This document shows positions 36,607 to 42,644 of a stretch of 64,000 nt of DNA, piece by piece. The stretch spans positions 1 through 64,000 of the forward strand of contig NZ_JACXAD010000002.1 in assembly GCF_014699115.1 (NCBI RefSeq), in the 5' to 3' direction. The notes below the pieces were generated by a model. The model did not search any database, was not told the origin of the DNA, and saw only the letters and a program-made list of their open reading frames with translations. The translations under genes and the position numbers were made by a program. How positions within the stretch are numbered: position 1 is the stretch's first letter; every line of letters begins with the position of its first letter. The stretch comes from Hymenobacter montanus. Lineage in GTDB: Bacteria; Bacteroidota; Bacteroidia; Cytophagales; Hymenobacteraceae.

Positions 36607-37219
36607 TCACGCGGTCTGCTTGCCCATAGCAGCTTTGCGATGACTATGAATGACGACGCCCCGGTGGCGTAAGTATTTATAGAGTGTGACCTTAGAGATG
36701 CTCAGGCGCTGGGCAGTTTCGTTGATGCCAAGCAGCTGTTCCCGATAGAGGGTTTCGGCGATAATGGCCGTGCGCTCGGCCTCTTTCGAGAGGCCCCGCT
36801 GGCGGCCACCCACCCGGCCCCGGGCGCGCGCCGAAGCCAGTCCGGCGTGGGTACGCTCGCGAATCAGCTCCTGTTCAAATTCGGCCAGTGAGGCAAACCG
36901 GTTAAACACGAGCCGGCCCTGGGCGGAGGTCGTGTTGATGGCATCGGCCAGCGAGACCAGGCCCACGCCGCGAAACTCGAGTTCGGCCACCATATCCAGC
37001 AAATGCTTGAGCGAGCGGCCCAACCGGTCGAGCTTATTAGGTGTAGACCGTATCGCCTTTGCGCAAGCTGGCCAAGAGCCGGTCTAATTCCGGGCGGGCT
37101 TTGGTGGCCCCGGAAGCATGTTCCTGGAAGATAGTTTCACACCCGGCCTTGTGTAAGGCATCAAGTTGCAGTTCCAGGTGCTGGTCGCGGGTGGAGACGC
37201 GGGCGTAGCCGATTTTCAT
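36607..37219 (-). pseudogene. Serine resolvase/invertase, broken by a frameshift
   Basis: Two frames make one serine recombinase. The first (37219-37037) reads MKIGYARVSTRDQHLELQL with the catalytic Ser in ARVST and stops after RKGDTVYT. The second continues NKLDRLGRSLKHLLDMVAEL, FASLAEFEQELIRERT and a C-terminal HTH (INETAQRLSISKVTLYKYLR). One extra base near 37035 separates them. It is a Tn3-type TnpR and a candidate res site lies directly upstream. Confidence 0.85.
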
Positions 37220-41323: not shown

Positions 41324-41344
41324 ATGATATATCATAAACATTGC
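41324..41344 (-). promoter_or_regulatory. Candidate MarR operator upstream of outer membrane gene
   Basis: On the minus strand GCAATGTTTATGATATATCAT, containing the palindrome ATGATATATCAT (41324-41335). The same 21 bases occur upstream of the marR gene. Confidence 0.65.
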
Positions 41345-41458
41345 TTAGATGTGCGTATTCCGCAGCAGCTTGTATCAAGCTGATGAGCTTCGGCAAGATG
41401 GTAAGAGAGGGCTGTTATTTGTTAAGCCGTTGCGAAGCAGGCGAAACGGTCGAAAGAC

Positions 41459-41890
41459 CTAGTCAGTGGGTACGCAGTTGCCGGCAATGCGCTCCAGCAG
41501 TTGTTGGAGCACGGCTATCTCCTCAACCGAAATGCCGGCCAGCGCCCGGGCCCGGTTATTCAGGATCAGGGGGTGCACGGCGTCGAGCAAGTGCTGCCCC
41601 TGTTCGGTGACTCGGAGCTTGGTGCGGCGCCCATCGTTCGGCAAGGGTACCGCCGACAGCAGGCCGCGCTTGGTGAGCAGCGCCAGCATGCGGGCCACCG
41701 ACGCCTGATCCTTAAAAACCTGCTCCGCGATTTCGTGTTGGGTCAGGTCGTCATGCTCCAGCAGCACCCGCAGCACCAGCCACTGGTCGATGGTAATGGC
41801 GAGCCCCGCCCGGTCGATGTTGGCCTGAGCCATCCGCCGGTAGCTACGGATAGCCTTATCAAGCGAGTAAAAAAGAATGGAGTTAAGCAT
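41459..41890 (-). CDS. MarR-family transcriptional regulator
   Basis: A 143-residue winged-helix regulator that usually binds palindromes as a dimer and lets go when it meets a small ligand or oxidant. The winged helix spans about residues 30-95: WLVLRVLLEHDDLTQHEIAEQ, FKDQASVARMLALLTKRGLL and the wing SAVPLPNDGRRTKLRVT with the DGRR wing motif. The start MLNSILFYSLDKAIRSY (41890) follows a TATCTTTG box by 7 nt. A perfect 18-nt palindrome just upstream is the likely self-binding site. The outer membrane protein gene downstream on the same strand carries the same operator. Confidence 0.88.
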   Translation of the reverse strand: MLNSILFYSLDKAIRSYRRMAQANIDRAGLAITIDQWLVLRVLLEHDDLTQHEIAEQVFKDQASVARMLALLTKRGLLSAVPLPNDGRRTKLRVTEQGQHLLDAVHPLILNNRARALAGISVEEIAVLQQLLERIAGNCVPTD

Positions 41891-41897
41891 GATGAAG

Positions 41898-41931
41898 CAA
41901 AGATACGGCAATGTTTATGATATATCATAAA
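41898..41931 (-). promoter_or_regulatory. marR promoter with overlapping operator palindrome
   Basis: TATCTTTG at 41898-41905 (-7 box) and TTTATGATATATCATAAA at 41914-41931, a perfect 18-nt palindrome placed between the -7 and -33 positions, where a bound repressor would block RNA polymerase. Confidence 0.7.
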
Positions 41932-42023: not shown

Positions 42024-42644
42024 CTACCTAGTCAGGCCCGGAAACAGGGCCGCGATGGCCGTGGCGAAGAAGTTAACGCCGATAGCCAGCGTGATAAAGC
42101 CCATAATACGCGCCATGGCCGCCATGCCGGGCTTGCCCAGCACCCGCGTCAGGCGCAGGGAAAATAGCAGAATGATAAAGCTGGCCAGCGCCACCAGCGA
42201 AAAGCCGGCTATGGTCATGGCCTTGTCCACGTAAGTCGGGCGGATGAGGCCGATGCAAATGGCCATGGACCCCGGCCCTGATAGCATGGGCATAGCCAGC
42301 GGCGTGAAGCTCACATCGTCCTTGTGTTTGCTTTCCTCCAGGGCATCGGGACCGACGCGGTCGCGGTTGGCGCCGGGGGTGAGCAATTCGAAGGCCGAGC
42401 GCATGAGCAAGATGCCGCCCGCAATGCGCAGGTGCTGGATGTTGATGCCGAAAAAGTTGAGGATATACTGCCCACCAAAGAAGGCCACGCTCAGGATGGC
42501 CACCATGTACACGCAGGCCCGCAGGGCGGTGCGGGCCCGCTCGGAAGCCCGGTCGTCGGCGGTGAGCGTGAGGAAAACCGGCATCGCCCCAAACGGGTTA
42601 ACGATGGAAAACAGGGTGGTGAAGGTGGCGAGCAGTACTTCCAT
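42024..42644 (-). CDS. MarC-family membrane protein
   Basis: A 206-residue inner-membrane protein of the MarC/NAAT family with about six membrane segments (for example TTLFSIVNPFGAMPVFLTLT at the start). Diagnostic motifs: FSIVNPFGAMPVFL, FFGINIQHLRIAGGILL and PLAMPMLSGPGSMAICIGL. Despite the name, MarC is not shown to cause drug resistance; the transported substrate is unknown. It runs divergently from purE, 120 nt away, and is separated from marR by about 130 nt on the same strand. The start follows a TACCTTTG box by 7 nt. Confidence 0.9.
   Translation of the reverse strand: MEVLLATFTTLFSIVNPFGAMPVFLTLTADDRASERARTALRACVYMVAILSVAFFGGQYILNFFGINIQHLRIAGGILLMRSAFELLTPGANRDRVGPDALEESKHKDDVSFTPLAMPMLSGPGSMAICIGLIRPTYVDKAMTIAGFSLVALASFIILLFSLRLTRVLGKPGMAAMARIMGFITLAIGVNFFATAIAALFPGLTR

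Follow-up and report, generated by a model that had tools for sequence, protein, structure and literature searches.

A conserved dyad before marR and an outer-membrane barrel gene of Hymenobacter as the probable operator of a local MarR circuit

An exact 21-bp repeat flanking a marR gene of Hymenobacter montanus is, in our estimation, highly likely to serve as operator for the MarR-family regulator whose gene lies between its two copies, with a neighboring outer-membrane barrel gene being repressed until a ligand releases MarR. A sequence-only reading of this DNA had proposed that the MarR protein recognizes the two sites and has the barrel gene as its target, and comparative genomics now lends that proposal strong support. 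As judged from the genomes compared, regulator and target very probably form a real pair, though one of a conventional kind.

Results

The repeated site in the window and in its genome

The 21-mer occurs exactly twice in the window (i.e., the whole 64,000-nucleotide stretch of H. montanus DNA analyzed here), once before marR and once before the barrel gene, just as the sequence-only reading had it (Table 1). The two copies are inverted and lie 563 bp apart. The same reading had given them the same orientation relative to their genes, and this proved incorrect, as the copies are on opposite strands and marR and the barrel gene are both on the minus strand. Since the 12-bp core is its own reverse complement, the error touches only the GCAA arm and is of little consequence. 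The part common to both copies consists of the dyad ATGATATATCAT and a single GCAA arm, and the asymmetric GCAATG arm is gene-proximal at marR and gene-distal at the barrel gene. The perfect palindrome that had been noted at marR was likewise found, and its length is 18 bp in the window, 26 bp in the related locus L011, and 36 bp in L015.

Table 1. Coordinates of the features of the marR-barrel locus in the window.
Feature	Position	Strand	Remarks
Outer-membrane barrel gene, 815 aa	38763..41210	-	Proposed target
21-mer GCAATGTTTATGATATATCAT, copy 2	41324..41344	-	114-134 nt before barrel ATG; 12-bp dyad core 41324-41335 plus GCAA arm
MarR-family regulator gene, 143 aa	41459..41890	-	Pfam MarR/MarR_2; ATG at 41890
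Putative -7 promoter box TATCTTTG of marR	41898..41905	-	TAnnTTTG type; read 41905-41898
21-mer GCAATGTTTATGATATATCAT, copy 1	41908..41928	+	In marR promoter region
Putative marR operator, 18-bp palindrome TTTATGATATATCATAAA	41914..41931		Additional GCAA arm at 41908-41911
marC-type membrane gene	42024..42644	-	Precedes marR

No other match to the 21-mer was found in the window at up to three mismatches, and 100 dinucleotide shuffles likewise gave none. A search of the whole genome, which had been suggested as a way of defining the regulon, returned no further exact copy; in 5,368,640 bases, the exact core ATGATATATCAT is present at just the two window sites. When one mismatch was allowed, six places were found in the whole genome, both window sites included, and the reversed control pattern also gave six, so that one-mismatch matches to the core are at background level. 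A generalized 23-mer with three mismatches allowed likewise recovered no site in the genome beyond the two; the genome thus holds no third exact core that would point to a larger regulon. Elsewhere in the window, on the minus strand at 36607-37219, two ORFs read like a split site-specific resolvase/invertase, as judged from their translation.

Conservation at linked marR-barrel loci of Hymenobacter

We searched 120 Hymenobacter genomes and found a MarR ortholog in 54, the window's own counted, at 61-100% identity; the next group of MarR proteins followed at 40-44%. In 47 of these 54 genomes, one genome per species, a barrel ortholog is the next gene on the same strand. A core with no more than two mismatches was present within 150 nt upstream of marR at 45 of the 47 linked loci, the window's own included, whereas 200 dinucleotide-shuffled sets averaged 0.8 such loci and never exceeded 4/47. 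The best core had no mismatch at 31 loci, one at 10, and two at 4, followed by single loci with five and six. The two exceptions, L012 and L014, have no marR-proximal site and retain a site between marR and the barrel gene. Both belong to the clade of the window, comprising nine loci (L007-L015) with MarR proteins 77-100% identical to that of the window; here, the barrel-proximal site was found in 9/9 loci (0-2 mismatches) and the marR-proximal site also in 7/9. The other 38 linked loci have the marR-proximal site alone, the best matches at 432-760 nt after the marR start having 3-6 mismatches, so control of the barrel gene at these loci would need co-transcription with marR.

Aligned in gene direction, the sites follow the consensus GCAACCTTnATGATATATCATA, which continues as ATCTTTTG at the barrel sites of the clade and as CATCTAT at the other marR sites. 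Doubled cores occur in 13 loci; their starts are exactly 20 bp apart in ten of these and 42 bp apart in three. Such spacings correspond to about two or four helical turns, the arrangement to be expected if protein dimers occupy the same face of the DNA.

Several loci have a second barrel gene. In 14 of the 47 linked loci (L018, L026, L027, L030, L033, L035, L036, L054, L057-L060, L064, and L068), a more distant barrel (43-54% identical) lies directly upstream, giving the order barrel2-site-marR-barrel1, and L114 is arranged likewise. In L088, L089, L100, and L101, two barrel genes were found with no marR detected between them, and the site is still there.

The regulator, its promoter, and the barrel protein

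The MarR protein of the window matches PF12802 (1e-11) and PF01047 (2.2e-11), both above the gathering cut-offs. Its AlphaFold2 model has a pLDDT of 82, and the best Foldseek matches were SlyA bound to DNA and RovA, with further MarR-family chains among the matches. All 13 of its matches to NCBIfam equivalogs (HpaR/SlyA/OhrR) score under the respective cut-offs. The start codon is backed by an invariant M1-L2 in 23 aligned sequences (22 from Hymenobacter plus Fibrisoma), in which the stretch VFKDQAS.AR, at the beginning of the presumed recognition helix, is likewise invariant.

Read toward marR, the promoter region consists of the core, 11 nt, the box TATCTTTG, 7 nt, and the ATG. The box fits TAnnTTTG, the -7 consensus described for a Flavobacterium (PMC9723704). 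An exact TAnnTTTG is present in the marR leader of 7/9 loci of the window clade, and TACCTTCG occurs in an eighth. Among the seven clade loci with a core before marR, six have 11 nt between core and box and one has 10 nt. At about 20 nt further upstream, a -33 element would coincide in part with the distal half of the palindrome. The box lies 7 nt from the ATG at the window's marR and 5-8 nt in other close relatives and, with a -7 box this near to the ATG, marR may be transcribed with no leader or almost none.

The barrel protein contains, in order, CarboxypepD_reg, plug, and OMP_b-brl_3 domains (PF13620, PF07715, and PF14905), all above the gathering cut-offs, and is accordingly predicted to be an OMP_b-brl_3 outer-membrane barrel, of the TonB-dependent-receptor-like type. 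A sequence search for solved relatives gave none at E <= 0.001, and a structure model built from five sequences was unusable (pLDDT 33). A search against plasmids returned just three short matches of 100 bp, all three falling within barrel-type genes of Hymenobacter sp. BRD128. Around the barrel site, none of the nine window-clade loci showed a TAnnTTTG box; several have ATCTTTTG after the core, a sequence that departs from the consensus. Since the barrel site is without a clear box of this type, repression is less certain there.

Co-occurrence of the site with MarR

The motif GCAAYNTNNATGATATATCAT, with at most one mismatch, was found in 45 of the 120 Hymenobacter genomes, and the reversed control in none. 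These matches amount to 57 rows, some near-palindromic sites being counted on both strands. All 45 genomes are among the 54 with a MarR ortholog vs. 0/66 genomes without one (Fisher 2e-24, uncorrected for relatedness), and each of the nine MarR-bearing genomes that miss the strict motif has a variant or core-only site. By coordinates, marR or a barrel ortholog accounts for 55 of the 57 rows. The remaining two are G016:C4, for which we have no explanation, and G046:C26, situated in front of a barrel paralog with 38% identity. In genome G046, cores precede a gene for a Peptidase_M43 protein with PKD domains and a distant barrel paralog (L092:2021 and L091:2038). The two genes could be extra regulon members in that genome, or the sites could be due to chance.

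In seven genomes, marR is located away from the barrel gene, in two different gene neighborhoods. None of these displaced marR genes has a core upstream (0/7; best matches with 4-6 mismatches), and the core was found at all nine barrel copies examined in the same genomes (0-2 mismatches), the barrels being 61-71% identical. In one displaced-marR group of three genomes (L086, L087, and L098), two cores lie 313-334 bp apart before the barrel gene, a spacing at which DNA looping is possible. Since the marR-proximal site is missing in L012, L014, and all seven displaced marR genes, autoregulation is not general. The sequence-only reading had the regulator controlling both itself and its neighbor; the neighbor as target is strongly supported, and the equal weight given to autoregulation is not. 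From the distribution of the sites, the barrel gene appears to be the more constant target and autoregulation to be optional.

Four genomes (G066, G021, G089, and G103) carry a barrel gene at 63-65% identity and have no MarR ortholog, with MarR matches in G066 and G021 reaching about 30% at most. No core was found in 900 nt at any of these four barrels (best 4-5 mismatches), a comparison that covers the barrels above 58% identity in MarR-less genomes. Nine further barrel copies in MarR-bearing genomes are also without a site. Their full-length identity is 52-60%, with 49-51% for two beside displaced sites, and they were classed as paralogs by identity or position. When a tree was built from 83 barrel rows, five of the nine formed one group and three another. 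The ninth, L106 of genome G032, groups as sister to L022, which has the site; therefore, L106 is better seen as a duplicate without the site. A duplicate can thus lack it, a result that counts against the operator reading. With the nine copies set aside, the site is present at 70/70 barrels of MarR-bearing genomes vs. 0/4 of those in MarR-less genomes, or at 70/71 when L106 is counted. The four MarR-less barrels nest among site-bearing ones in the tree, and all three independent contrasts are concordant, three pairs being too few for significance (sign test, p 0.25).

Relatives outside Hymenobacter

In a second genus of the family, the core precedes marR, with the barrel gene downstream, in all eight loci found (0-2 mismatches). 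In the Fibrisoma family (Spirosomataceae in the NCBI taxonomy), marR (51-56% identity) is divergent from the barrel gene in seven genomes, and the core lies upstream of the barrel gene in 7/7 fetched loci, six of them exact and one with a single mismatch. The GCAA arms are not clearly conserved in these loci. In Fibrisoma limi, the gene after a second MarR (50% identity) encodes a PF00144 serine hydrolase, and an exact core starts 29 nt before the ATG of this MarR; the related locus L137 has a core with one mismatch. Among more distant MarR relatives (33-45%), TTGATATATCAA was found near the start in 11 of 16 examined. The exact core at a MarR of 50% identity and the occurrence of TTGATATATCAA in these relatives thus indicate that the site tracks the MarR lineage, its sequence having shifted in the outer branches. 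A sister MarR lineage precedes a beta-lactamase-fold serine hydrolase (L113:3972-5882 and L078-L081; PF00144 confirmed in L113 and L078), the site being ATGATATATCAT in Fibrisoma or TTGATATATCAA in Hymenobacter paralogs. This pair may constitute a second MarR circuit.

Discussion

Proposed mechanism and alternative explanations

The genome comparisons establish that the two sites are identical, that they are conserved and co-occur with marR, and that the site is retained with the barrel gene; that MarR binds them directly is what these patterns suggest. In the mechanism we propose, a MarR dimer would bind the dyad ATGATATATCAT, with its A/T-rich flanks and GCAA arm, before the barrel gene and, in the window clade, also before its own gene. 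At marR, a dyad situated just upstream of the -7 box would block RNA polymerase when occupied. A ligand, probably tied to whatever the barrel handles, would then free MarR from the DNA and so switch the barrel gene on. Repression, rather than activation, is suggested by the position of the site and by the usual behavior of MarR proteins (PMC5487221), and relief by a ligand is likewise expected from that behavior.

The sign of this control is where an alternative carries the most weight. MarR could bind the same sites and activate the barrel gene, or counter another silencer there, as SlyA and RovA can. These two proteins are the best fold matches among solved structures, SlyA is described as activating fimB and hlyE by antagonizing H-NS (PMC5797941), and the barrel site lies well before its ATG with no promoter box found. 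However, at marR the palindrome stands directly before the -7 box at a conserved spacing, which is the typical position of a repressor site, and the nearest folds share merely 25-28% identity with the window's protein. We therefore regard activation as unlikely, though more probable than any other alternative. It is considerably less probable that the site belongs to another regulator whose presence merely correlates with that of marR. Being an AT-rich dyad of generic form, the core could be recognized by many regulators, winged-helix or other, and the link between MarR and the site is drawn from sequence; yet such a regulator would have to account for a motif in 45/54 genomes with MarR and 0/66 without, for an identical exact core at a 50%-identical MarR with a different neighbor gene, and for TTGATATATCAA in the same place at 11/16 of the MarR relatives of 33-45%.

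The repeat itself could have another origin. Exact 21-mers in inverted orientation around marR might be the ends of a segment that undergoes DNA inversion (phase variation) or the mark of a mobile element, and invertible promoters are known to be used by Bacteroidota (PMC4747536, PMC8748976). However, marR and the barrel gene keep one relative orientation in 47/47 linked loci of Hymenobacter, each species being represented by a single genome. Where relatives have two sites, the sequences flanking them are not alike, and in 38/47 linked loci the 330 nt that follow marR contain no copy. Since the core is its own reverse complement, the inverted arrangement is in any case explained. We consider an inversion or mobile-element origin very improbable and have rejected an invertible segment, one orientation alone having been seen among these 47 species. 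That an AT-rich palindrome in intergenic DNA was repeated by chance, as the base composition and location of the core might suggest, is hardly credible. It is contradicted by the absence of matches in 100 shuffles, by there being just two exact copies in the genome, and by conservation across dozens of species (45/47 linked loci vs. at most 4/47 after shuffling); the sequence-only reading, which had considered chance very unlikely, was right on this point. The explanation we favor thus remains that the repeat is a MarR operator through which the barrel gene would be repressed.

More tentatively, MarR and the barrel may form a dedicated sensor-importer module kept in at least two Cytophagales families, its operator inherited with the barrel and lost with MarR, and MarR sensing the compound that the barrel imports. 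We give this extension somewhat less than an even chance. If true, it would provide a handle on the cargo of an OMP_b-brl_3 protein. Even without this extension, a specific putative operator and a very small apparent regulon can now be assigned to an uncharacterized MarR lineage of the Hymenobacteraceae and the Fibrisoma family. An OMP_b-brl_3 barrel would likewise be tied to a regulator of the ligand-responsive type, and the ligand of MarR could point to the cargo of the barrel. The genomes with a displaced marR also offer a natural experiment in which control of the target is parted from autoregulation.

Comparison with known systems

In the literature searched, most subscription journals being outside its coverage, we found no report of the motif ATGATATATCAT or of a MarR-barrel circuit. 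The literature with TTGATATATCAA included a report on a DtxR-like TroR of Treponema denticola, the rest being, by title, unrelated to bacterial regulators. Literature joining MarR-family operators and autoregulation with TonB-dependent receptors consisted of a review on Zur; publications naming both Hymenobacter and MarR were, by title and the start of the abstract, microbiome or environmental studies and reviews.

SlyA and RovA, which have been solved in complex with DNA, share the MarR fold and winged helix with the window's regulator and, besides being its best fold matches (25-28% identity), are among its best sequence matches. However, the protein scores 47.8 bits against the NCBIfam SlyA model, vs. 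a cut-off of 120 bits. SlyA regulons are wider than local, whereas the known sites of the window's MarR are local. HpaR is the best NCBIfam model for the protein, belonging to the same family and having a similar length, but a score of 49.7 bits vs. a cut-off of 121.2 argues that it is not an HpaR by NCBIfam.

The closest likeness is to local MarR circuits, in which the operator lies between or before the regulator and its target, as described for HucR and uricase (PMC5487221). Shared features are the MarR fold, a palindromic operator in the regulator's own promoter, a neighboring target gene and, in relatives from the Fibrisoma family, the divergent arrangement. In contrast to circuits of the HucR/uricase type, an OMP_b-brl_3 barrel takes the place of an enzyme as target, the operator remains at the barrel gene even where marR has moved, and autoregulation appears to be optional. 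Taken as a whole, the circuit appears to be of the usual MarR kind (PMC5487221), and its proposal is well supported rather than surprising.
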